Shown piece by piece: positions 6,960-41,368 of a stretch of DNA of 64,000 nucleotides. The stretch lies in contig CM037586.1 in NCBI GenBank assembly GCA_021018995.1, positions 147,106,060 through 147,170,059 on the forward strand. Direction: 5' to 3'. A model generated the notes under the pieces. The model ran no database searches and had not been told where the DNA came from. It saw only the letters and a list, made by a program, of their open reading frames with translations. Position numbers and translations under genes: made by a program. The DNA comes from Chloranthus sessilifolius (taxonomy: Eukaryota; Streptophyta; Magnoliopsida; Chloranthales; Chloranthaceae). Position 1 is the stretch's first letter. Each line of letters begins with the position of its first letter.

Positions 6960-7792
6960 ATAAAGAACGGTAATAAAAACCTAATCATAATATTGAATTG
7001 CCGTTCTTTAAGCATCAATCACTTTCACTGCACACAGCCACGTGTGTGTTGCATAGTATTCACAACAAAATGCATACTTATTGCATATTAGTGATTCCAT
7101 AGAAAATTATAGCCTAGCCAATATCTAGAAAGTCGAGAATATTCTACGGCAATGGCTTCCACTTTTCATACAAGAATGTCATTTTAAAATTGTTCAAGTA
7201 AAATGACACTCATAGATCATCTGCAAAAATGTTTGCATCTCGATGAACAATTACCACGCAGTTTAGCACGACAATGATATCTTGTGCAATCAGGGTCACA
7301 TGTTTTTGTGACATTTGTGTGCTAGACCTAACAATAAGTTTGGGAAAAAAAATCCTAATGATAATTCATGTATGTTATGGAACAAGATTATAATAAATTC
7401 CTTAGATACAGGTTGGTGCTCCATGAAATGCTTCAGCCAGCAATAATTTTGTGCTGAACTCGTGTCTATGAAACACTGTAGTCAGATCAACAAACACCCT
7501 CAATATGGATGGCACTTTTATGATTATTCTGGAACAAACAGATACAAATCCAATACTAATTTCTGACTTCTAAGCATTTCCTGAGGTAACATCTGCTGAA
7601 TGAACTGAATTGATAACATGATTCGATAAGTAGAGAATCAACTATAAATAAGGATGGGTGGGATTCATACTAACTTGCCGCCACATCAATCATCCAAAGG
7701 CATCAATTGAAAGCAAAGTGACATAAATAAGCAGGATAGAATGGAAATACTTGAATTTCAGCTATAAGCTCAAAAAGACGGAGTTATACGTA
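6960..7792. other. Intergenic / 3' flank of the host gene
   Basis: A/T-rich sequence with no supported gene. Its right part must hold the 3' UTR and polyadenylation site of the minus-strand gene ending at 7793; I see no strong AATAAA on that strand in the first 250 bases, so the mRNA end is not placed. Confidence 0.5.
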
Positions 7793-10613
7793 CTATCTTC
7801 TAGAGGCTAACCCAGACCGCACGGCCCTGGAATAATGGACACAAAAATTCAAACAAACAAATTTTATTCAATTTCAGATTTGTAACATTACAGTCTGCAA
7901 ACATAAAAAATAGTAAGCTGCAGATGTAGTACCTTCCCTGCTGTTTCGCTCCAGAATTTATGGCATGTCTGCCATTAGTGCTTGATCCTTTGTTTTGAGA
8001 TGCAACCAAGCCTGATCCATCACGATTTGTTCCATTTCCAAAAGTCTCATGTAAAGGTGAATGGCCAGCCTTCAATTCGCTAGAGAAACCATTCAGCTCC
8101 TGATCTTTTGATTTGCTTAAAATATTTACATTCGAGAGACCTTGAACAATGTTAAAACAGACACCATTTAAATGCTGATTCTTCGTTGCTGAAAGATGCA
8201 AAGACTTGTCATGCGCATCTGAAGGAGCAGTAACAGCAGCTTCTGGGTAAATAGTCTTCACAGATTTGGTATCGATAGATACAACCCTTTTCAGACGATG
8301 AGCCTGAGCCATAGGAGTAACGGCAACAGAGGGAAACAATGAAGAGTAGGGAGCAGAAGCAGCAGCTGCAGCAGCAACTTTTGCTACTGCAGTGGTTGCT
8401 GATATGATTTCTTGTGCACCATCACGAAGATGAATAAAGTCTCCTTCAATCACAAATAACTGGAATTGCAAAGAAAGATACTCAGAGAATAAAATAGAAT
8501 TTATATCATTAAAATGTCTAAACTTGATCATACAAGAATCTTACTTCGGGGTGACCAGCGACAAAGTCGTCAAGCTTTCCATATTGTTTCCTGTAATCAT
8601 GCCAGTGAAGGGGTGCAAGCATTTTACCAAGTCTATTTGGTAGCTGCAATACAAATTTTATCAACCAGATTAATTTCCAGAAATAACTTAATAGCTAACA
8701 AAAGCAGCATAGGTCTATGGTATGAAGTACGAACATTTACAGACTTCACTTACAGTTGTGCTAATTCTAATTCGACCCCCAGATCCAGCCGGGATTGCAC
8801 GAACAATGCAAGCCAACAATGCTCTTTCATCTAGAAGAGTGACTTCCAGAGACTTTCCCACTGTCAGTGAACTTGATGAGCGTCCAGCTGGGACAGTTAC
8901 CTCAGGTAGAATCACACCATCAGTAGTGTGTACTGGAGCTTCAGAGGAATTTAAAGGATGGCTTGGAATAGCAGATAGTGACACACTAGTGGATGACAAT
9001 GGTCGTTCCGTTATCAAACCCTGTTCCTCTCGTGATTTATTATTAATTGCAACCACCATTTTCTCGTCATGTCCCTGCATAAATTTAGGATTAGCTAAAA
9101 ATTTTCCTCATACTTATCAGCTGGTTTCAGGACCTTTATTTGCCAAGCTGACCTGATATTATCAAACATTTGAGACAAGAAGACGCTTCACAATTCAAGT
9201 AGAGATAAGTTGAGAATCTCCACCATTAACAACGAACCTGAGGCTCAATCTTCTGCTCAGTCAGATCCAATCTTTGTGTCACATGAAAGTGGGATGAACT
9301 CTCTTGTAAGTTATGTTCTAATTGTTGTGATACCAAGTATTGCTGTTCATTTGATTCAAGTACCTGACAGATCCGTAAAAAGGTCACATGACTTTGTCTA
9401 GAAAAAGGGTAATGGAAATGTAGCAACAATTGAGTTATAAAAAATAATATTCACTTAGAACCTGTGGTTCCTCATTGGATGGGATGATTACAGGACCAGA
9501 GCCCTGCTTTGTGCTGATGTGAGACTCCAGATAGTCTGAATGGAGAACTTGTCCATGCGCTGAAAGCCCATACTCGTATTGAGCATCTGAACTCAGGAGA
9601 TTCTCATCGGTTTGGGATGGTTGATACTGGCCCTGACTTGGGATATGAGTATTCTCAGATGCCACCTAAAAGAGAAATGGATTGTCCTATAAAAAACCAG
9701 ACTCTACTTCACCAAAAAAGTTCTCTATTGGAGATTTTTCAATCCATAATTACCTGTGGATTCTGCCAATGTTGGTGGGATGATATTGCAGGAACTGGCT
9801 GAAAATGTCCTACATGAGATTGAGGAATATTCGAATTTGTTGGTGGCACAGAGTGTGGAACACCTTGTTGATGCATAACAAAAGGATGCACTGCAGGCAC
9901 TTGTCCAGGTGGAAGGAAGGCACCTATCCCGAGGATGGAAGATGGAACAGGGATTCCAGCAACATGATCGGCCTAAAAATCAAAAAAAAAAATGCAGCTC
10001 TGTAGTATGACAGCATCATCTTTAAGAAAATAAAACATAGAAGATGATACATCGAGTTTAAGTTGCCATTAGTTTTATCAGAATGAATATCATGAAACTT
10101 CAAACAATTGAGTCATGACAAGAAAAATTGAAACTTGCTATTAAAAGAGCAAGCAATTTTCAATTATTTTTCATAGGTCAAAAACACTGTCATTCAATAA
10201 CAACAATAGTCAGCAAACCAAAAAAACAGGCGCCAAATATGCAAATAAAGTAACTATACCAATCAATCCACAATCACAAATTTAAGAATAATAACACAAT
10301 TACAAGCGGAAAAAAAAAATGCGCCAAATATGCAAATAAGGTAACTGTACCAATCAATCCACAATCACAAATTTAAGAATAATAACGCAATTACAAGGAC
10401 AAAGCTTCATATCCAAATATATAGTACCATTTAGAGAATGTAAATTTAAGTTCAACAGTACAACTTAGCTATAATCAAGTCACAGTCATTATGGATGCGA
10501 ACATGGGTCAGGTAACTCAGGTCAGCCCAAACTCAACACAATTGGAACTAAACCTGGGTCCAGGGGTAGGACCCAACAGGTCAGAACTTTGATCTGTAGC
10601 CACACCAACCACA

Positions 10614-27691: not shown

Positions 27692-27793
27692 TAGTTGTTG
27701 ATTACTTATCACCTAAGGTAATGAGATGTTGGGTTCATGTGTTTGATGTCGACACTCATTGGATGCTCCCAAGATCTAGTACCATACACCCAT

Positions 27794-30312
27794 TGTAATA
27801 GCTCGAAAAATCACGCTAAACTATGACCTCGGGATCCGTGCCCGATTGGTCACAAGTTTGACCAATCAGGAGATCAAGAGTTAGCATAGAATGTGATGAA
27901 CGGACGAGATGTGATGGGTTGAATGCCTATGTGGTGTGTTGTGAATGTGAAGTCGCATACACCTACCGCGGTGTATGTGCTCAACACACAAGTGAGGAAA
28001 GGGATAAAAGGGTTTAATAGCCCTAAAAGCAAGAGTTTGATGGTTGTTGAAGGAGAGTAAAGAAGAGAGAGAGAGAGAAGTAAAGAGAGGAATAAATGCT
28101 AGTTGAGGAAGGGAGATTCGAGCAATAAACGTCGGATTCGACGCGAGGGATCCGCTAGAAGCAAAGCTGGAACCCTAGCCTTTCCAACCATAGATTTGAA
28201 ATCAATTTGAGATTGATTTAAGGTAAAATCTTGTGAATAAGATGCATAGATGGTAGAGTCTAAATTGTAGTTGAAAATGGTTTAAATCATAGGCTAATGG
28301 TTTAGAAAAATAGAGGAAAAAGTGTGGAAAAAGATGGGGAAGAAATGAAAAAAATTTGAATCTGACAATTTCGATTAATCGAAATTGGGTTTCGATTAAT
28401 CGAAATTGGCCAGGAAGTTGAAAAGTCAGTGGACCCCGATTTCGATTAATCAAATTGGAGTTCGATTAATCGACTTTGGATTTCGATTAATCGATTTGGG
28501 TATCGATTAATCGACTGGGAACCTCCAGTGGACCCCAGGGGGCTGGAGGAAAAGACTTGGGAAAATCGACTAATCGAAATGGAATTTCGATTAATCGATT
28601 TCAATTTTCGATTAATCGATCTGGGATCGATTAATCGATTTTAGGAACTCGATTACTCGAATTGAGAATCGACTTGGCTGAACAGAGAATTTCGATTAAT
28701 CGAATTAAGATTCGATTAATCGAATGAGAATCTCGATTAATCGATTTGAGAATCGATTAATCGATATGGACTTTCAATTAATCGATTTTGGAAATCGATT
28801 AATCGAATCAGATTCGATTAATCGATTTTGGAAATCGATTAATCGAATCAGATTCGATTAATCGATTTTGGAGTTCGATTAATCGACTGAGATAAGTTAT
28901 GTTGACTTTTGAGTTTGACTTCAAGATTCTTGGAGGGTCTTAGACCTTCTTTATTGCATCCTTTGTGATGTGTTTCACCTGTTATGTGGTACCATAGGTG
29001 GTACGTGTGGATTAGTGCACAAGGAGCCACGTGGGACCTTGATGCATTGATCAAATGAAGACTTGAGGTAGGGAACACCTTGAACATGTACTTTATTTTA
29101 CAAGAGCATGTATGTAGTGATATAGAATTCAACTCAAATGTTTTATTGCTTAAGAATTGTGAAAAGTGTGTGTGCGTGTGACATTCGTAAGAGTAATCAT
29201 AATGAGCCATCCCCAGGGGATGAAGAAGTAAAAGAGACAAGAACATCAGGTGTGATGCAAGTAAATGGATACATCCCAGGGATGTATCCAGGATTGAATC
29301 ATGTTTGATAGGGCCTAACTGATATAAGATAGCACACTTACACGGTGAATAACTATATGTAAGGCACCGATATTTTTGTTATTTGAGGTTTGACCGACAC
29401 GACGGATATCCGACCGATATCCGTGATCGGTGAAACCGTAGGCCGCGGAGGCTTATCCAGGTACATCGTAAGCACACCCTGTGGGTGTTGGATTGAGACA
29501 AGTGAAACCCGCCGCCAATCCCTGTGGAAAGGGCTTGGTACTATATGGTATTCCTGTGGAATACGTTAAACCGCTCTATATAGATGGCGATGAAGGTATC
29601 GACGGGCTCGATGCTATATTGCTGGGGACTACTTAAGTTGAAAGTTTAAGTTTTGCTTTAGGCTTTTTCAAAGATCATTCATGAGTAAATGAAAACATAA
29701 GTAATCAACAGAAAAGCGAAATGCTTTTAAGCTTTTCATCAATAAGCATAGACACATCATGCATGGCATATCATGGAATATATGTGAGTTATAATTTATA
29801 TGTTCAAGCGTGTTTGTTCCCTATTGAGCTAGGATGTAGCTCACCCTATAGACTATCGTCACAGTCCACTACTAGCTATGCCGAGGCTTGTGGAGACGCC
29901 GATCCCATGAAGTCGGACCTTGCGGCGTGTGAGTTGGAGCCACCTCCGAGGACTTCTTCTAGAGGACTCCAGCCGCTTTGAGGGCTTTTAGAGAGATTTT
30001 GTATGCTTGGTATGTCAAGCCTTGATTTTGTTTAAAACCATGTATATAAGGAGTTGGGATAATTCTTTTGGGACGAACCATCCGTGATGATTGCTGTCAT
30101 CGATGGTTCGGATCGGTTCTCCATTCATGCAGAGGCATGAGGGTAGAACTATCTTTTGGGGAGTTGATTGATATAGATTTAAATTTCGCAATTTCGTTAT
30201 TATTCTATTATAATGCTTGATATACCAGTGTTCCGTGCTTAGCAAAGGGCACGGTCAAGATGATCGTGCTGATGGCACGGGTTTCGGGGTGCCGAAATCC
30301 GGGGCTGTCACA
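27794..30312 (+). mobile_element. Solo LTR, Ty3/gypsy-like, 2.5 kb, with palindrome array
   Basis: Starts TGTAATAGCTCGAAAAATC, ends GGGGCTGTCACA, and has a perfect 5-bp duplication CCCAT at 27789-27793 and 30313-30317, with no internal region. The end sequences resemble those of the gypsy LTRs at 51214 and 56322, which is the basis of the family call. The 28368-28890 part is an array of TCGATTAATCGA-like palindromes. The same LTR occurs inverted at 31368-33848. A whole solo LTR; the rest of the element was probably lost by LTR-LTR recombination. Confidence 0.85.
28368..28890. repeat. Array of about twenty TCGATTAATCGA palindromes
   Basis: The core CGATTAATCG recurs with few variants (for example CAATTAATCG, CGACTAATCG, CGATTACTCG). 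In the best-kept part cores start at 28796, 28815, 28836, 28855 and 28876, spacing 19 and 21 bases alternately, so a 40-base higher unit. The spacers vary (AATTGG, TTTTGG, AATCAG). Confidence 0.9.
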
Positions 30313-30699
30313 CCCATCTATTTATAAACTTACATATACACATATTTATTCATTAATCTATTTCCTATTATACAAATTGATGCATGGCTTGGGTTGGGTG
30401 TACAACATTACACCAATTTGACCTGACACACACATCTAGGGGCTGAATAAACTCATGTGAACTATAATAATGGTACTTGAAAGTTGGGTTGGTTATAAGT
30501 GGTGTACCCATACCAAAGAAAAGGTGAGCCCAAGACCATGTTATCCAAGTCAAAGGTTTGACTAAGGTCAAACCAATCAAATAGCTACATTCTCATCAAA
30601 AGTCAACGATTCAACATTAGCAAAAATTCAGGTTCGTTACATCAACCTACTTGAGATGACAAGAGTGATTAGGGGATGATGTTCAACGAATCAAGTAAT
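30313..30699. other. Short intergenic segment
   Basis: Unique-looking A/T-rich DNA between the solo LTR and the LINE. Nothing recognised. Confidence 0.5.
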
Positions 30700-31367
30700 T
30701 TTATTTTTTTTGAGAGACAAGATAATCATCATTAAGAAATTAAATTCACAAAAATAATTTCATGGATCTGTGGAGGGACATCCTCCAACCAGATCTCATT
30801 ACAGTTAGGTAACAACTCGATTTTCGCTAGCATATCCGGAGCTCGATTTGCTAACCACAAAACGTGAGTACACGAGTAGGACGTAAGTGAGATAGGTCTG
30901 ATGAATCAGTGTTCTGATAAAAAACTTTGTTCATGACGTTGAGAGAATCTCCTTCAAAGATAATATGATGAAAACCACATTGATGAGAGAATTGAGTAGC
31001 AAGGAGGAAGGCAAATGTTTCATAGTATTCCGTCGAGGCAATATTCTTACAATTCATTGCCATAAAAGTCATAACTTCTCTGTTATTATTTCGAACAATA
31101 ATCCTGACCCCAACATTTTTCTCTATAGCCATCCAAGCCCCATCAAAATTTGCTTTGAGGAAACCCACAGGGGGAGGGGACCATGTCCTATAAACAACAA
31201 CTAAATGATTTGGGGAGTCCACAACTGATGAATGTGAAGACAAATTTGCTTTATAATACTCCATTAGAAATTGTTCAACTTGAAAAGAGATCCGAGTAGG
31301 ATCACGAGCCTTCACACCATGAATGACATTGTTCCTCTCATTCCATATCGCCCAAGCAATCATAAGA

Positions 31368-33848
31368 TGTGACAGCCCGGATTTCAGCACCCCGAAACCC
31401 GTGCCATCAACACGATCATCTTGACCGTGCCCCTTAGCTAAGCACGGAACATTGGTATATCAAGCAACATGAAGTAGTAAATGAAACTGCGAAATTTAAA
31501 TCTATATAAAAGCATTTCTCAAAAGACAGTTCTACCCTCATGCCTCTGCATGAATGGAGAACCGATCCGAACCATCGATGATAGCAATCATCACGGATAG
31601 TTCACCCCAAAAGAATAATCCCAACTCAATATATACATGGTTTAACCAAAACAAGGCTTGACATACCAAGTCGTACCAATCTCTCTCAAAAAGCCCTCAA
31701 AGTGGCACAACGGAGTCCTCTAGAAGAAGTCCTCAGGAGGTGGCTCCAACTCTTCGCCGGCCGCAAGGTCCGACTCACCAGGGTCAGCGTCTCCTGAAGC
31801 CTCAGCCGCTGCTAGAAGTGGACCTGCGACGTATAGTCTATAGGGTGAGCTACATCCTAGCTCAATAGGGAACAAAACACAGTTGAGCATATAAATTATT
31901 ACTCACATATATTCCATGATATGCCATGCATGATGTGTCTATGCAGTTATTGATGAAAACAGTTAAAACGCATTGCATTTTACTAGTAATTACTTATGTT
32001 TTCGTTTATTCATGAATGATGCTGAAAAGGCCTAAAGCAAAACTTAAACTTTCAACTTAAATAATCTCTGAGCAATATAGCATCGAGCCCCGATGAGATA
32101 CCCATCATCGTCATCTATATAGACACTTTTAACAAATTCCCTGGGAATACCATATAGTACCCAAGCCCCTTTCCCCTGGGGATTGGTGGCGGGGTTTCAC
32201 TTGTCTCAAATCAACACCCCTGGGGTGTGCTTACTATGTACGGATAAGCCTCCGCACTGGCTTACGGTTTCGCCGCCGTATCATTCACAGATATCCTGCC
32301 GTGTTACTCGTGGATATCCCGCCATGTCGGTGGGGTACCCTATCAAACCTCAAATAACAAAAATATCGGTGCCTTACATATAGTTATTCACCGTGTAAGT
32401 GTGCTATCTTATATCAGTTAGGCCCTATCAAACATGATTCAATCTTGGATACATCCCTGGGATGTATCCATTCACTTGCATCACACCTGATGCTCTTATC
32501 TCTTTACTTCTTCATCCCCTGGGGATGGCTCATTATACTTACTCTTATGGATGTCACACACACACACTTTTCACAATTCTTAAGCAATAAAACATTTAAA
32601 TTTGAATTCTATATCACTACATACATGCTCTTGTAAAATAAAGTACATGTTCAAGGTGTTCCCTACCTCAAGTCTTCGTTCGATCAGTGCATCAAGGTCC
32701 CACGTGGCTCCTTGTGCACTAGCTCACACGTACCACCTATGGTACCACATAACAGGTGAAACACATCACTAAGGATGCAATAAAGGAGGTCCAAGACCCT
32801 CCATGAAGCTTAAAGTCAAACTCAAAAGTCAACAAAATTTAGCACAGTCGATTAATCGAACTCCAAAATCGATTAATCGAAAGTCAATATCGATTAATCG
32901 ATTCTCAAATCAATTAATCGAGATTCCCATTCGATTAATCGAAACCTAATTCGATTAATCGAAATTCTCCACTCTATCTGTCGATTCTCAATTCGAGTAA
33001 TCGAATTTCTAAAATCGATTAATCGAAATTATAAATCGATTAATCGAATTCCCATTTCGATTAGTCGATTTCACCAAGCTATTTTCTTTCCTCCACTGGA
33101 GTTCACTGTAGGTTCCCAGTCGATCAATCGATTTCCAATTCGATTAATCGAAATCTAAAGTCGATTAATCGAAATTCAATTCGATTAATTGAGATCGGGG
33201 TCCTCTGACTTTTCAACTTCTTGGCCAATTTTGATTAATCGAAACCCAATTTCGATTAATCGAAACTGCCAGATTCAGCCCCTTTTTGGTTGTTCTTCCC
33301 AATCTTTTCCCTTACTTTTTCCTTCCATTTTTCTAAACCTTTGTTCTACATTTCACAACATTTCTAGCCACTATTCACCCTTCTAATCTATGCATTTAAA
33401 CTACAAAAATCTTACCTTCAATCAATCTCAAATTGATTTCAATCGAGTGGTTGGAAAGGCTAGGGTTCCAGCCTTTGCTTGAACGGATTCCTCGCGTTGA
33501 ATCGGTCTCTTTAATGCTTGAATCCCCCCTCCAATCACCCAATAACTCTTGTTTAATCTCTTTACTCCTCTCTCTCTCTTCTTTACTCCTCTCTTAACAA
33601 CCAAATACAGATTTTAGGGTTATTAAACCCTTTTATCTCTTTCCTCACTTGTGTGTTGAGCACATACATCGCGATAGGTGTATGCGACTTCACATTTACA
33701 ACACACATCACATAGACATTCAACCCATCACATCTCATCCGTTCATCACACCCCTTACTAACTATTGGACTTCTATTTGGTCAAACCTATGACCGATCGG
33801 GCACGGATCCCGAGGTTATAGTTTAGCGTGATTTTTCGGGCTATTACA
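31368..33848 (-). mobile_element. Solo LTR, same family as 27794-30312, inverted
   Basis: On the plus strand it starts TGTGACAGCCCGG and ends CGGGCTATTACA; the perfect 5-bp duplication TAAGA lies at 31363-31367 and 33849-33853. It aligns over its whole length with the complement of 27794-30312, including the palindrome array (about 32845-33265). The tandem partner at 37015-37030 (CAAGCAATCATAAAAAGTC) shows the site without the LTR. Whole as a solo LTR. Confidence 0.9.
32845..33265. repeat. TCGATTAATCGA palindrome array, second copy
   Basis: Same motif and similar spacing as the array at 28368-28890, but shorter and with other variants (CGATCAATCG, TGATTAATCG). The motif is kept better than the spacers. 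Confidence 0.85.
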
Positions 33849-34141
33849 TAAGAAGTCTATCCATATGCTTCATTCCATGTGTAAGGTAAAAATCCTCCGC
33901 CCACATCCTAAAAGAAAGATTTTGTAGTTCGTTTGTTTTAGCTCCCAGCGACGAAGAAAACCAGCAACACTTAGACTTTGGGTAGTCTCGAAGAGCATGA
34001 GAACACATCTCCAAAATATTATCACAGAACATACAAAATAGGGAGAAGGATCTGATGTGGTTATGTAGCTTGGAGTAGACTGGTAAAACATCGTTACATG
34101 CATGTTAAGCGAAGATTTTAACTCTATTTGGTATTTTTAAA

Positions 34142-35557
34142 TGGTCGATCTTGTTATGTATATTAAAATTATGTTAAACTCAAGTCTTAATCTATTGCAA
34201 GTGCACAATGGAAATCATAGTATTAGCATAGGATCATTCCCATGAAGAAGTTTATTTATCTAATTACTTCTTATTTATATCTTCTATTTAAATCCTTACT
34301 TTAAAAACTTTTATTTCTCTTTAAGGTCTAATCTACTGGAGAAATATGAATAAAAGAATGATTTCTAATCTAAAGCAGATAAAATAAATCTAAATCTTCC
34401 TTCTTCAGATTGAGGCCGTCAATCTCAATCTTCAGCTATCAGATATTTATGAATTTAAACAGTACTGTTATATCCTATCTCTAGTTTCTTAGCATTGGTC
34501 GTCAATCAAGTCTAAGATCCTATAAATACAGATTTAATCTAATCAATAACTTTCTAAAATCTGGGCGTCAATTAAACCTTAGAAAACTAAAGATGGAAAA
34601 CTAAAAACTGTTACACTAATCTACAAATTCTAACCTGAGTTGTCAATTCAAATTAAAACTTAGAGATATTTACAAAGCATGAAAATAAAATCTAAACTAG
34701 AAAGCAAATAAATATATTTTTACCCCTCAACCGTAGTCGTCAATTGCTTATGAGAAACTAGGATATATATACTAATCTTTAACACTCAATTGCAGACGTC
34801 AATTGCTCTTGAGAGACCTCTGATATTTAATCTATTCTAACTATTTTACACTACTTTTATTAGAAGAAAATCTAACCCCAGTTGACAATTGATGCTGAAA
34901 TTCTTCGATGCTTATTCCTACACCAAGCTCTCTTATTTATAGATCATAAGGAGTCAGTTTATAAAGACTTCTAATTCTAATAAAAGAAACCACTAAAAAT
35001 AAAAGATTCCTAATATAACTCTAATTCCTTTATTTCAGCAATCGAGATTTCTTAAAACTTATCTTCATCAATCTTCTCAGATCCGTGATCAGTTAAACTT
35101 CTAATTTCATATATCTTCTAATTTTTTTCATGACAGTGTAATATGCACGTAGTCAGCAGTAGCAATAATAGTAGGAAAGCTTCTTTTCAAGGAAATCGCA
35201 GATCACAATTTCTCATTTTCTTCTCTTTCTTAGAAAATTGTAAATCACAATTTTCTATCTTTCATAGCTTCCTCATAGTTGACGATTCTCTGGATTACGA
35301 TTTTTCGCTTTTCTTCTTTTGTCTCTTTTGCAGAATTGTAAATTATAATTTTCTGACTTTTAGAAGGCGGGAAATCGTCTTTTTCTCTCAATCGTATTTC
35401 TTATTACTTTTTGAGTTTATTTTGATGAATATTAAGACTTTGACTCTCTTTTACTAGTTATCTCTAATATCTGCACATCATCAACTTGTTAGTAGCAAAC
35501 TATAGCCTAGCATCACTAAGTTAAGGGTGATAAAATGGTAAATTATGTGACTAATCA
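34142..35557. mobile_element. LTR-like insertion (probable solo LTR), 1.4 kb
   Basis: TG..CA ends (TGGTCGATC and GACTAATCA) and a perfect 5-bp duplication TTAAA at 34137-34141 and 35558-35562. The tandem partner near 37305-37320 reads TATTTTTAAACACCACA, the exact empty site. The interior repeats GTCAATTG/GTCAATTAA words but has no recognisable protein. A solo LTR of an unidentified lineage is the best reading; strand unknown. Confidence 0.7.
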
Positions 35558-35880
35558 TTAAACACCACATATTCTTCCAAAATCGATGACGCAACAAGGA
35601 GCTTGTAGTCATATTTTTTAAGCGATTGAATTAGCTTCATGTTACCTTTCTTAGAGAGAGTTATATTATAAATTTAACCCAATATAATTAGGGATTAGTG
35701 AAATATGACTATGGCCTTGTAAATTGTGCTATGGTTGCCTCATTTGTAGGCCACATGGTACAACTTCTATCAAACCCAACTCATAAAAGTTGTAACTCTT
35801 AATATGGATGATTGTGAATTTTTTAATGCTGCATATTTATGACTTAGACAACTCTACATTTTGTAATGCGCTTTTAAGTT

Positions 35881-36078
35881 ATTAATATTAAGAGTTAGTC
35901 TACAATGGGTGTCCACTGATCATGAGTGGACATCACACTCCACTCGTTCCTGTGACTGAGTGTACGGACTTTCAATGCATGAAAACTTGCACAATTCACT
36001 AAGTCAGAGGAACATGTGGACTGTGATGTCCACTCATGATCAGTGGACACCCATTGTAGACTAACTTTAATATTAAAG
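35881..36078. mobile_element. Palindromic MITE, unit A copy
   Basis: GTTAGTCTACAATGGGTGTC..GAGTGGACATCACA on the left is repeated inverted on the right (TGTGATGTCCACTC..ACCCATTGTAGACTAAC), arms of about 60 bp, flanked by TTAATATTAA-like A/T palindromes. The partner is at 37631-37831. Confidence 0.8.
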
Positions 36079-36125
36079 AATGTTGATTGGATAGTCAAAT
36101 ATTATTATAATATTAGTCTTAGGAC

Positions 36126-36790
36126 TAGGGCTCTCAATGGGCTGGCCAACCCGAATTTTGGCCGACACCCGGTCCGAAAAAACTTGTATTTTTAATTAAG
36201 CAAACCCGGCTCGGTATCCGGACGGGGCTAAGCATGTTGCAACCCGGATAAATCCGGGGCGGGCTTGGGTTGAGTGTTGCAACATCCGGCTCGCACCCGG
36301 CCCGGATATTTTATATATATATATATATTTAAAATTATAATTGTTTTTATATAGTTAAATATGATTTAGTTAAATGCCCTGAGATTAAATCGTTAAACGG
36401 CTTAAACTTGGGGCATAATAACTTTGTGCATATATTTTTTGGTTGGACAAATTAGATGGCTTAATTTATTTTCAAGCAACCCTTGCATAGTTTTTTAGCT
36501 ACACAACTTGAATGGCTTGCTAATAGATTTTCAAGTAGTTGTTGTCCGTTATAACCATTGCGCAATGAATAAAATAAAATATTTGAATAAAATCATGTAC
36601 CTGAGCCTCTATAATAATAATATACTTATTTAATTAAATTTTTAACCTTCTTCAATCTTTTATTAGGAAAACAACCCAACACAATTTTATTAGAAAAAAT
36701 AGCCTAAAAAAAAAAAAGTCGAAAAATAGCCCGAAAAAACACCCAAGCCTGGCCCCGCCCGATAGGGGCCGAGCTTGGGCTGAGTACATC
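36126..36790. mobile_element. hAT-type element (TAGGGCTCTCAATGGGC family), unit A copy lacking its right end
   Basis: Left end TAGGGCTCTCAATGGGCTGG after CTTAGGAC. Interior is rich in CCGGCCCG/CCCGGAT words. The right end is missing; the element stops at the duplication junction. Confidence 0.7.
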
Positions 36791-36792
36791 GC

Positions 36793-36860
36793 AGCCCGAG
36801 TCAGACCCATCAAGCCCCATCAAAACTGAATGATGGGGTTTGATGGGTCTGACCCGAGCT
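36793..36860. repeat. 68-bp hairpin at the tandem-duplication junction
   Basis: The 30-base left arm (from AGCCCGAGTCAGACCCATC) pairs with the right arm (ending GATGGGTCTGACCCGAGCT) at about 27 of 30 positions around an 8-base loop AAACTGAA. It is absent from the outer end of unit B. Confidence 0.85.
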
Positions 36861-36861
36861 G

Positions 36862-37420
36862 AATGATTTGGGGAGTCCACAACTGATGAATGTGAAGACA
36901 AATTTGCTTTATAATACTCCATTAGAAATTGTTCAACTTGAAGGAGATCCGAGTAGGATCACGAGCCTTCGAACCATGAATGACATTGTTCCTCTCATTC
37001 CATATCGCCCAAGCAATCATAAAAAGTCTATCCATATGCTTCATTCCATGTGTAAGGTAAAAATCCTCCGCCCACATCCTAAAAGAAAGATTTTGTAGTT
37101 CGTTTGTTCTAGCTCCCAGCGAAGAAGAAAACCAGCAACACTTAGCCTTTGGGTAGTCTCGAAGAGTATGAGAACACATCTCCAAAATATTATCACTAAA
37201 CATACAAAAGAGGGAGAAGGATCTGATGCGGTTATGTAGCTTGGAGTAGACTGGTAAAATATCGTTACACGCATGTCAAGTGAAGATTTTGACCCTATTT
37301 GGTATTTTTAAACACCACATATTCTTCCAAAAATCGATGACGCAATACGGAGCTTGTAGTCATATTTTTTAAGTAGTTGAATTAGCTTCATGTTACCTTT
37401 CTTAGAGAGAGTTATATTAT
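36862..37420 (-). mobile_element. LINE zinc-binding region, unit B copy
   Basis: The minus strand reads AIWNERNNVIHGSKARDPTR near 36970 and KCCWFSSSLGARTNELQ near 37100, colinear with unit A. It starts at the junction, so the RNase H end and A tail are absent. Confidence 0.7.
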
Positions 37421-37630
37421 GAATTTAACCAAATATATTTAGGGATTAGTGAAAAATGACTATGGCCTTGTAAATTGTGCTATGATTGCCTCATTTGTAG
37501 GCCACATGGTACAACTTTTATCAAACCCAACTCATAAAAGTTGTAACTCTTAATATGGATGATTGTGAATTTTTTAATGCTGCATATTTATGACTTAGAC
37601 GACTCTAAATTTTATAACACACTTTTAAAC

Positions 37631-37831
37631 TATTAATATTAAGAGTTAGCCTACAATGGGTGTGCACTCATCATGAGTGGACATCACACTCCACTCGTCC
37701 TTGTGACTGAGTGACTTGTACGGACTTTCAATGAATGAAAATTTGCACAATTCACTCAGTCACAGGGACATGTGGACTGTGATGTCCACTCATGATCAGT
37801 GGGCACCCATTGTAGACTAACTTTAATATCA
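37631..37831. mobile_element. Palindromic MITE, unit B copy
   Basis: Same arms as 35881-36078 with a few substitutions (GTTAGCCTACAATGGGTGTG). Confidence 0.8.
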
Positions 37832-37881
37832 AAGAATGTTGATTGGATAGTCAAATCTTATTATAAAATTAGTCTTGGGAC

Positions 37882-38614
37882 TAGGGCTCTCAATGGGCCG
37901 GGCTAGCCCATATTTTGGCCCGCACCCAGCCCGGAAAAAGTTATATTTTTTATTAAGCAAACCCAACTCGATATCCAAACCGGGCTAAGCATGTTGCAAC
38001 CCGGATAAATCTGGGTCGGGCTTGGGTTGAGTGTTGCAACATCCGGCTCACACCCGGCTCGGATATATATATATATATAAATTATAAATTTTTTTATAGT
38101 TAAATATGATTTACTTAAATGTCCTGAGATTAAACCGTTCAATGGCTTAAACTTGGGGCATTTAAGTCAAAAGCGCAATAACCTTATGCATATATTTTTT
38201 GGTAGGACAAATTAGATGGCTTAATTTATTTTCAAGCAGCCTTTGCAAAGCTTTTTAGCTACACAACTTGGATGACTTGTTAATAGATTTTCAAGCAAAC
38301 GTTGTCTACTATAACCATTGTGCAATAAATAAAATAAAATATTTAAATAAAATTATGTACCTGAGCCTCTATAATGGTAATATAATTATTTAATTAAGTT
38401 TCTAACCCTCTTCAATCTTTTATTAGAAAAAAAAAATAACCCAACCCAATTTTATTAGAAAAAATAGCCCCCAAAAACAGCCCAACCAAATTTTATTAAA
38501 AAAAAAACAGTCGAAAAAAAGTTCGAAAAAACACCCAAGCCTGGCCCGGCCCGATAGGGGGCGGGCTTGGGCTGGGTACAAACCCAGCCCTAATCCGGCT
38601 CATTGAGAGCCCTA
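37882..38614. mobile_element. Complete hAT-type element, TAGGGCTCTCAATGGGC family
   Basis: Ends TAGGGCTCTCAATGGGCCGG and CCGGCTCATTGAGAGCCCTA, complementary almost throughout. CTTGGGAC at 37874-37881 and 38615-38622 is a perfect 8-bp target duplication. Subterminal CCCGGC-rich blocks flank an A/T-rich centre. 733 bp, no transposase. Confidence 0.9.
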
Positions 38615-38990
38615 CTTGGGACTATGGGTTCAAACTCACCCCAAGGTGTTGGATTAGAGTCACTTGGAGGCCATGTGACATCTATTCGGGGAATCGAATT
38701 TTACAGAAATTTGCCCAAGGACAATTAGAGGGCACCCAAAAATTTGGTCAAAGGAGAAAAATTCAATGCACCTGGATGTGTGGGCGGTACCCCAACTATG
38801 ATCAGTGTTTTAACCACCAAATATATTCTTTTATAGATCACATGTCACATGACACACGATTCCAAAATGGGTGTTGTTTTTTAATCATGGCATGTGATCT
38901 GGGGTTCTAATCCGCTACTCCCACTACGGGTTCAGAAATCATTTTTCCTATTTGCCATAGTATTATTCTTTTTTTTTTTTTTTCTGAGAT

Positions 38991-39373
38991 TGTTAGGGAC
39001 TTCACGAATGATGGAGATTGATTGCCTAGCTGTCTTATTTAATTTGTGGTGAATTGTTGTCTTTCAATAAATATTGTCTTTCCTTTTTAACAAATGTTGC
39101 CTAAATTATTCACGTAGGTGTTGCTTTCCTTAATTGAGAAATGTCTTTTATTGTAATGGTTGTTCAATTATTTAAATGCTTGAGGCTAAGAATAAAATTA
39201 TCGAATGAGTATTATTTTCAATCGTGTGTTAATTAGGAGTTGTAATTTTTCTCGAATTAAACCAACAAGGGAGGCTTAGGAACCCTCGAAATAACCTACA
39301 ATATTACTATCATATCTTTGTTCTCTACCTGTTCATAAACTTATTATGAGGTTGCAAACTCAGGCACGTAACA
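38991..39373 (+). repeat. 5' LTR of the small gypsy fossil
   Basis: 383 bp with TGTTA..TAACA ends; contains TTTCAATAAATATTG, a likely polyadenylation region, and is colinear with the 3' copy. Confidence 0.75.
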
Positions 39374-40961
39374 ACTTAGTATCAAAGCCAGGTATGGTCG
39401 ACCACCGTCTCGAGCAAGTGGAGAATGAGCTTGGCTTATTGGTTGCGGGCCAAAAGGAGCTATCACAAGCTATGAGGGCTAGTGAAGAGCGTCTCTTGAA
39501 GCATATGGAGAGCATGTTTGCTCAATTTTTACGCGGGGTGGAGAACATGACGATGATGTCGAGTCTTCTTGTGGGCCCCGTCGTAGCCCTTCAGGAGGAG
39601 GCTCTCTTGCACCAAAAATTACAAAGTTGAATTTTCTACACTATAATGGTATGGATGATACAACCGGGTGGATTTGTTAAGTGAAGCAATTTTTTGAGTT
39701 CCAAGGCACGAAAAAGGCGGAAAAACTCCCCACGGCCGATTATCACTTGGATGACAATGTCCAATTGTAGTATCAACGTTTTAAAAATCGGCGAGAAGGT
39801 GTCAATTGAGAAACTTTCAAGTACGAGTTGCATTTACGATATGGGCCTTCAAGATACCAATTTTTTATTTGGGATTTCACCAAACTTAAACAAATCAGAA
39901 GCATCCGCGATTATCAAATGGACTTTGATCGTTTGTTATATCGAGCTGGCCATTTGTTCGAAGAACAACAAGTTGGGTGCTTTGTGAGCGGGTTAAAAGA
40001 GGCAATACAATTTTACGTACAAGCATGTAATCCTATCTCATTGTCCGCCGCTATCGGTTTGGCACGACTCTATGAGTCTCGTATGTATGACCAATGGAAG
40101 GGAGGGTACGTGAAATCTCAGATAACTTCATCTACCATGGGACATCCACCCTCAACATCTCTTACCCAAGCTCGTACCCCCACTATTAAGAGGTTGAGCT
40201 TGACTGAGTTGCAAGAAATGAGGACGTGTGGATTATGCTTCAATTGTGATGAAAATTTTTCTCTGGGGCATCATTACAAAAAGTTCTTTTTAATTGAAGG
40301 AATTTTTCCTTTTATTGAGGAGCCGTTGGATGAGATGACCATGGAGGAGGAGCTATTTTAGGAAATGCGACATCTCAGTCCATGCGTTTTCTTGAAAAAA
40401 TGGGAGATTTCTTGGTTACAATTTCGGTGGATTCCGATAACACTCATAACTTTTTGAATTCAAATGTAGCTATCAAAATAAGAATTTATCCTATAAGGAA
40501 AGGAGAATTTCCAATTCAAGTGATAGATGGAAATAAAATACAAAGTGAAGGATTGTATGAAAGGCTCCCTATTTTAGTACAAAAGGTTCAATTCCACGTG
40601 AATTTTATCTTTTATCGGTAGAAAGATGTGATGCCGTTTTTGAAACTCAAAGGCTCAAAAAATTGAGTCTCATTATTTGGGAATTCAATGAGCTATGGAT
40701 GCGATTTTGGTGAGAGGAAATTAATGAAGTTACGTGAGACAAGAGGGCCTAACAATAAAATTATGGGCGAGCATGAATTAGAGGAGCAGTTGCGAAAAGG
40801 AAAAAGAAGGAAACTCACAAAAAAGAAAGAGAAATGGAAGCTCTTGTTTATTGACAAAATCTCGTCCCTGCTGAGGCCACATGGGAGAATCAAGCTGATT
40901 TCAAGGCCCGATTTTCATATTTTTTCTTTGAGGACAAGAAAATTTTTAAGGAAGGAGGAGC

Positions 40962-41368
40962 TGTTAGGGACCCCACGAATGATGGAGATTAATTGGCCAG
41001 CTGCCTTATTTAATTTGTGCTGAATTGTTATCTTTCAATAAATATTACCTTTCCTTTTCAATAAATGTTACCTAAATTATTCATGTAGGTGTTGCTTTCC
41101 TTAATTGAGAAATATCTTTTATTGTAATAGTTGTTCAACTATTTAAACGCTTCAGGTCAAGAATAAAATTCTCGAATGAGTATTATCTTCTTCAACCGTG
41201 TGTTGGTTAGAAGTTGTGATTTTTCTCGAATTAAACTAACAAGGAAGACCTAAGATCTCTCGAAGTATCCTACAATTTTATCATTATAAGTAGAGCGCGC
41301 AAGGACGATCCTTGTTCTCTACCTGTTCATAAACTTACTACGAGGTCACAAACTCAGGCACATAATGA
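40962..41368 (+). repeat. 3' LTR of the small gypsy fossil
   Basis: Colinear with 38991-39373, with one extra stretch near 41290-41320 (GAGCGCGCAAGGACGATCC). The right limit is approximate because the end is degraded. Confidence 0.7.

Follow-up and report, generated by a model that had tools for sequence, protein, structure and literature searches.

The window analysed here is a stretch of 64,000 nucleotides of Chloranthus sessilifolius DNA, and it contains two long terminal repeats (LTRs A and B) of one family, each with an array of the 12-bp palindrome TCGATTAATCGA (the core). Both LTRs have TG...CA ends, a 5-bp target-site duplication (TSD) and no internal region, and they are independent solo LTRs because neither adjoins an internal region. 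Both are dead copies that still carry the array. The features of the locus are as follows.

LTR A, 27794..30312, + strand: solo LTR of 2519 bp, TGTAATAGC...GGCTGTCACA, assigned by its ends, the 5-bp flanking duplication and family membership.
TSD of LTR A, CCCAT: left copy 27789..27793, right copy 30313-30317.
Array A, 28371..28886, + strand: 21 TCGATTAATCGA sites, 17 exact and 4 with one mismatch, in units of about 20.5 bp.
Repeated 40-bp two-site unit, 28780..28865 (limits approximate), + strand: source of a local 19/21 alternation of spacings, absent from LTR B.
Second palindrome series of LTR A, CCCAGGG/CCTGTGG, 29208..29564, + strand: starts at 29208, 29266, 29474, 29516 and 29548.
Candidate TATA box TATATAG, 29577..29583, + strand: common to both LTRs.
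Candidate TATA box TATATAA of LTR A, 30043..30049, + strand: LTR B has TATATAT there.
LTR B, 31368..33848, - strand: solo LTR of 2481 bp, an independent insertion in the orientation opposite to A.
TSD of LTR B, TAAGA: left copy 31363..31367, right copy 33849-33853.
Array B, 32848..33263, - strand: 16 TCGATTAATCGA sites, 10 exact and 6 with one mismatch, orthologous to array A unit by unit.
Paralogous stretch without an LTR (empty site of B), about 36859..37312: matched by the flanks of B at 97.0% over 165 bp and 94.9% over 293 bp.

A single foldback element made of the inverted pair was ruled out, as each LTR has its own TSD. On the simplest reading of the empty site, LTR B would have been inserted later than the duplication that produced this paralogue. 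An Rfam search of 27700-34000 gave no match at the gathering threshold. We also observed an ORF at 30851-31390 (- strand) with an RVT_3 RNase H-like domain (Pfam, 4.2e-12) and an end of LTR B at its 5′ end, as well as seven direct-repeat pairs of 105-300 bp at 33847-41288, four of them about 1.75 kb apart. Within the LTRs, A and B agree at all 100 aligned bases of 29294-29393, which lie next to a 12-column gap; for most of the remaining 100-base bins the difference is 4-32%. The CCCAGGG series is also found at equivalent places in LTR B, and its arms are site-specific yet self-complementary; at 29474 both arms co-vary (ACACCCC/GGGGTGT vs ACATCCC/GGGATGT). Its centres are TGT-type at three of five sites in LTR A and four of five in the related LTR L013, and CAG in most of the 16 copies compared; L013 has the TGT-type centres despite a 3′-flank difference of only 4% from L012.

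The initial annotation had described about twenty 12-bp palindromes across some 500 bp of an LTR, and this was borne out by the 21 sites at 28371-28886. With at most two mismatches, TCGATTAATCGA has 37 matches in the window against 3.66 expected, and no more than 8 were found in any of 100 shuffles. Successive sites of array A are spaced by 21, 50, 20, 21, 20, 63, 21, 21, 19, 22, 43, 20, 21, 20, 21, 21, 19, 21, 19 and 21 bp. Array B follows the same order with units missing and conserves the gaps of 50, 63 and 43 (42 in B). The alternating 19/21 spacing that had been proposed holds for the five intervals at the end of A (21, 19, 21, 19, 21), but the other intervals are mostly 20-22 (with one 19), and array B has no such alternation. 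Helical phasing at 10.5 bp was weak in A (R=0.31) and moderate in B (R=0.66), and the best period was 10.35 bp in A (R=0.81) and 10.40 bp in B (R=0.85); because this best period is about half the unit length, helical phase is indistinguishable from the repeat period. Strict 19/21 phasing was dropped as a functional feature, since it is local only and the period equals half a unit. Array A contains 42 CpG in 516 bp (observed/expected 2.6), its spacers share a G-over-C polarity (34 G to 8 C), and A and B differ by unit-length indels of 19 bp and about 80 bp.

Divergence of core, spacer and flank

Between arrays A and B, mismatches were found at 5/192 core and 42/224 spacer positions (p=9e-8, for sites recognised by their likeness to the core, which favours conserved sites), and at 150/1415 positions of the 3′ flank and 125/575 of the 5′ flank. 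This agrees with the earlier observation that the inverted copy keeps its cores while the spacers differ. The core changes, five in number, are without exception transitions, and four affect a CpG. When a decayed half-site at 28669 was counted as core, the core-spacer difference weakened to p=1.8e-5. Permuting the mismatches inside the array reached the observed value in 0 of 100,000 trials. Random sets of 16 12-bp blocks were drawn 20,000 times from the LTR outside the array, and one reached it; the same draw from the 3′ flank alone gave 73. The spacer edit distance between A and B was 0.164 for orthologous units and 0.449 otherwise. Because the spacers keep this unit-by-unit orthology, inter-unit conversion does not explain the cores, and the gene-conversion-like homogenisation suggested by the initial annotation finds evidence against it here.

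We then surveyed the genome (2,168,743,587 bases, 32 contigs). Two exact cores separated by 6 to 10 bases occur at 109,796 places, and the reversed-pattern control occurs at 0; the pattern is palindromic, with an equal place count on either strand. The 109,796 places take in the internal arrays described below, and sampled LTRs average 4.2 to 8.8 places each; as a rough estimate, the genome holds some 10^4 arrays, the LTR copy number being given to an order of magnitude. The 14 stretches fetched around places on contig C1, which were chosen through the core, all belong to this LTR family, with 8-20 sites each and 67-89% identity to A or B in BLAST pieces. For an array-independent sample, the genome was searched with the 200 bases that begin LTR A; 40 of 3,965 first-look candidates were scored and were 98-100% identical to A over the 200 bases. 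All 39 of the other LTRs carry the array in the shared layout, with 13-20 sites each (678 in total, 550 exact), so the array is not private to two copies, an outcome by which the initial annotation would have been refuted. These 39 are near relatives of A, including two LTRs from each of three inferred two-LTR elements, and the more distant LTRs (L008-L021) were collected through the core.

Outside plants, viral contigs gave no match to the core pair or the LTR block, and no relative of the RNase H fragment. Bacterial and archaeal genomes gave three loci with core pairs and no long arrays, which were judged unrelated. At one of them, on an Elusimicrobia contig (L002:796-827), two exact TCGATTAATCGA sites, 20 bp apart, closely precede an ORF that has an HTH_3 domain; the geometry is operator-like, and presumably there is no shared descent with the plant array. 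Among the matches listed, a literature text search for TCGATTAATCGA and CGATTAATCGA gave no plant paper by title, and in topic searches this palindrome array was described in none of the titles or opening lines of abstracts.

An element has two identical LTRs when it inserts; differences between them arise later and are neutral in dead copies. We therefore compared five within-element pairs (L023-L037, L042-L024, L035-L036, L008-L009 and L010-L011), whose pairing was inferred from distance, orientation and a primer-binding site (PBS) or polypurine tract (PPT) adjoining an LTR, with disjoint pairs from different lineages; the flank was taken as all array-free sequence within the first 1,330 bases of the LTR. 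Within elements, the core (16/984, 1.63%) changes like the flank (64/4142, 1.55%), and the spacer differs at 58/1349. Between six diverged LTR pairs, the core differs at 81/1063 (7.6%), against 342/1118 (30.6%) for the spacer and 1440/4833 (29.8%) for the flank. The core:flank ratio is different in the two sets (Fisher p=1e-5), and it is borderline (p=0.050) for a young set of 18 disjoint pairs (core 119/3803, flank 885/14734). This analysis supersedes an earlier, smaller one with two within-element pairs (p=0.0056).

The core:spacer ratio was not significant in this non-strict count (p=0.63 diverged, 1.0 young) because the spacers also look fast within elements, probably owing to misaligned units; the span was set by sites with up to 3 mismatches, and the "spacer" of L010-L011 (479 bases) includes flank. 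With a strict count of only gapless units of equal length, the within-element values were 7/552 for the core and 8/398 for the spacer, the diverged values 23/492 and 122/352 (p=0.009), and the young values 39/2028 and 63/1458 (p=0.58, not significant). All pairs of 16 LTRs gave 0.061 and 0.051 for the core, 0.271 and 0.313 for the spacer, 0.292 for the 5′ flank and 0.174 for the 3′ flank. Thus the slower change of cores than spacers, which the initial annotation had set as its test, extends over many copies, and the equal divergence of core and spacer between lineages expected of a neutral minisatellite was not seen in the diverged pairs. The cores are rich in CpG and are conserved nonetheless; after insertion, core CpGs change faster (11/303) than other core bases (5/681). 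The core is slow between lineages and changes at a flank-like rate within elements; therefore it was kept while the element was active and decayed neutrally after insertion. From these alignments, the core was probably under purifying selection as long as the lineages transposed, and afterwards decayed neutrally, fastest at its CpGs.

The complete element and its second array

A two-LTR copy on contig C12 consists of LTRs L023 and L037 and the internal region L061. The element is a Ty3/gypsy chromovirus, with reverse transcriptase (RT), RNase H, integrase and chromodomain behind gag-protease, and its clade is presumably Tekay/Del. Pfam matches lie in separate ORFs of L061 in chromovirus order: Retrotrans_gag, RVP_2, RVT_1, RT_RNaseH, Integrase_H2C2, SH3_Tf2-1 and Chromo, the last at 25.9 bits against a cut-off of 25.1. 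By eye, GTTGGTATCAAA adjoining the LTR in L008 and L010 is PBS-like, and GGTGGGGAG before the LTR of L009 and L011 is PPT-like. Behind pol, the following features were found.

Second array, L061:5239-6022: 27 sites, 19 exact, between the chromodomain-bearing pol and an extra ORF.
Extra ORF copies, L061:6234-7511, L009:1226-2701 and L010:8102-9407: weak PF20167 match.

The order in L061 is second array, TATATATATAAAA and extra ORF. L010 has 17 sites at 7370-7866, upstream of the same extra ORF, and the second array is thus present in two of the three two-LTR copies examined, the two-LTR element L008/L009 being without it. Of four non-repeat strings taken from the LTR array or from next to it, L061 contains none, so the repeat unit is what the two arrays share. 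Among loci sampled by the extra ORF (20 of the 87 scored matches, with 1.5 kb fetched), 20/20 have 18-26 sites upstream. Across 22 copies (the 20 loci, L061 and L010), the distance from the end of the last site, with 3 mismatches allowed, to the TATATAT behind it is 9 bp in 21 and 11 bp in one. The LTR array, by comparison, is not near a candidate TATA box but 0.7-1.2 kb upstream. Over 10 disjoint pairs of internal arrays, the core differs at 63/1392, the spacer at 134/963 and the leader at 557/2238; the internal-array spacers are not simply free, because they are slower than the leader behind them.

The extra ORF of L009 (P0001) has 492 codons without a stop. As a genome query it gave 53,097 first-look candidates, of which the best 87 were scored, and 63 of these 87 have no internal stop. 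Between L009 and L010, codon positions 1, 2 and 3 differ at 58/417, 32/418 and 159/415, and the ORF looks protein-constrained because positions 1 and 2 are slow. Its match to PF20167 (Transposase_32) is 29.3 bits, and 32.3 bits for the L061 ORF, below the cut-off of 45; other Pfam matches were weak and at chance level. No DNA-binding domain was recognised in the protein with Pfam, and no match was found among solved structures or plasmids.

Candidate binding proteins and function of the arrays

The core is made of two overlapping inverted TTAATCG sites. A paired-homeodomain dimer site has the consensus TAAT-N2/3-ATTA, and the HD-Zip I, II and III consensuses are CAATWATTG, CAATSATTG and GTAATSATTAC. 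Transcription-factor sites were counted as consensus strings. TAATN2ATTA is absent from both arrays and TAATN3ATTA occurs once in each; likewise, arrays A and B contain no TAATCGATTA or TAATNNATTA and one TAATNNNATTA each, which argues against the paired-homeodomain sites proposed at first. Of the HD-Zip and WOX families that had been suggested for a motif scan, HD-Zip I/II/III sites were ruled out on these strings (0 in both arrays), while WOX-type TTAATCG fits: on the two strands it occurs 18+18 times in array A and 11+12 times in array B, with 3 in the window outside both LTRs. The WOX/WUS consensus TTAAT(G/C)(G/C), counted as TTAATSS, is likewise found 18+18 and 11+12 times, with 27 in the window outside both LTRs on both strands.

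Taken together, the sequence comparisons make it likely, in our judgement, that the array is a cluster of binding sites controlling the LTR and accessory-gene promoters of a high-copy Ty3/gypsy chromovirus. The 12-bp palindrome would be the site of a dimeric DNA-binding protein, and tandem duplication of about 20 bp would have built the array. Selection on the active element would then have kept the 12-bp cores as the spacers drifted, as the divergence data support. With one array in the LTR and the other ending 9 bp before the TATA box of the extra ORF, one factor could jointly control the full-length RNA and the accessory gene, most probably by activation or anti-silencing. This factor would be either a WOX-type homeodomain protein of the host or the protein of the accessory gene.

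A host WOX-type protein, which the element would use for expression in meristem or embryo cells, is a tentative candidate. The arrays are rich in the overlapping inverted TTAATCG motif, which is bound by OsWOX3A in EMSA and yeast one-hybrid experiments, and WUS is reported on TTAAT(G/C)(G/C) (PMC4783357). Moreover, AtWOX14 dimers are described as binding everted half-sites, with dimer binding favoured by 5mC (PMC11765556). However, the WUS homeodomain is reported to prefer direct TGAA repeats, with about 10-fold poorer binding to inverted or everted pairs (PMC7203112). The window contains no copy of TGATTGCAATCA, the ER0 probe site of AtWOX14, and the ER0 spacing differs (PMC11765556); similar sites are possible for other factor families.

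It is also possible, at about the same level of doubt, that the binder is the protein of the element's own extra ORF, acting in trans on both arrays as an activator or anti-silencing factor in the manner of VANC. The ORF lies directly behind the second array and the TATA box, it looks protein-constrained and is mostly free of stops among its best matches, and VANC proteins are reported to bind short motifs tandemly accumulated in VANDAL non-coding DNA (PMC5735166). The protein has, however, no recognised DNA-binding domain and no match among solved structures, and given the number of first-look candidates its ORF family may be wider than this element. In its fuller form, the element would have its own regulon, with one palindromic operator in two arrays and the accessory protein as the factor, a retroviral-type transactivator or anti-silencer whose motif and protein co-evolve as in VANC/VANDAL; we regard this as rather doubtful.

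An array that works as a CpG-dense target of silencing or of a repressor, not of an activator, is unlikely. The CpG excess of array A and the faster CpG decay in cores after insertion, which fits methylation, are in its favour, as is the report of OsWOX3A as a repressor of KAO (PMC4783357), but an active element under selection should not retain a site for its own silencing, an autoregulatory repressor excepted. Hardly more credible is a functionless LTR minisatellite, in which slippage and unequal exchange multiply a 20-bp unit and the palindromic centre arises by chance. The unit-length indels between A and B, the repeated 40-bp two-site unit, the spacer polarity and the non-significant non-strict core:spacer result are consistent with it, and short tandem arrays inside plant LTR retrotransposons have been described (PMC7004042). 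Nevertheless, it accounts for the origin of the array and not for the retention of the cores, which are three to four times slower than the flanks between lineages and equal to them within elements; nor does it fit with the same core in two arrays of one element and the distance of 9 bp to the TATA box in 21/22 copies. Finally, it is very improbable that the array works as an RNA or DNA structure (hairpins, or double-stranded RNA for small RNAs): compared with dinucleotide shuffles, the array RNA is far better folded (z -14.5 in array A and -8.4 in array B), but with cores kept and spacers shuffled 60/100 versions of B and 11/100 of A units 1-15 fold equally well, so there is no clear sign of selection for pairing other than that of the palindromes, while the low count for the whole of A (1/100) goes with its repeated two-site units and the 9-bp TATA distance is left unexplained.

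A binding-site cluster with promoter control, the reading we prefer, has partial counterparts in known systems. In the Drosophila gypsy insulator, too, the regulatory DNA of a Ty3/gypsy element holds clustered sites for a single protein, the repeated Su(Hw) sites, but the motif, host and position are different. VANDALs are Mutator-type DNA transposons, and in the VANC anti-silencing system the element's protein binds the repeated motif and takes away DNA methylation. In the chromovirus described here, as in VANDAL21, a short motif is tandemly amplified in the element's own non-coding DNA and an extra protein is encoded by the element; however, the VANC motif YAGTATTAY of VANDAL21 in Arabidopsis is non-palindromic (PMC5735166), and the present arrangement is seen at the sequence level. 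VANC is the closest working analogue and points to the extra protein as a candidate binder. Chromoviruses as described in PMC6317226 share the gag, RVP_2 protease, RT, RNase H, integrase and chromodomain, the PBS-like TGGTATCA, the 5-bp TSD and an LTR of about 2.5 kb, but the element described here additionally has the palindrome arrays and, behind pol, an extra ORF that has a TATA promoter of its own; extra ORFs are named there mainly for SIRE and Ogre/Tat/Athila elements. The subrepeats of Ogre-type LTR elements that seed satellites are also short internal arrays changing in unit number (PMC7004042), whereas the present element has a 12-bp core that is retained selectively and sits at a promoter. 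General LTR site statistics are given in PMC11656987.

Plant LTR retrotransposons are silenced, and the continued expression of high-copy families is an open question. The roughly 10^4 arrays in this genome, all built on a single motif that bears a signature of selection, together with a promoter-proximal array 9 bp from a TATA box, make a retrotransposon cis-code directly testable, and the extra ORF provides a candidate partner protein encoded by the element. Moreover, solo LTRs such as A and B spread ready-made site clusters through the genome.
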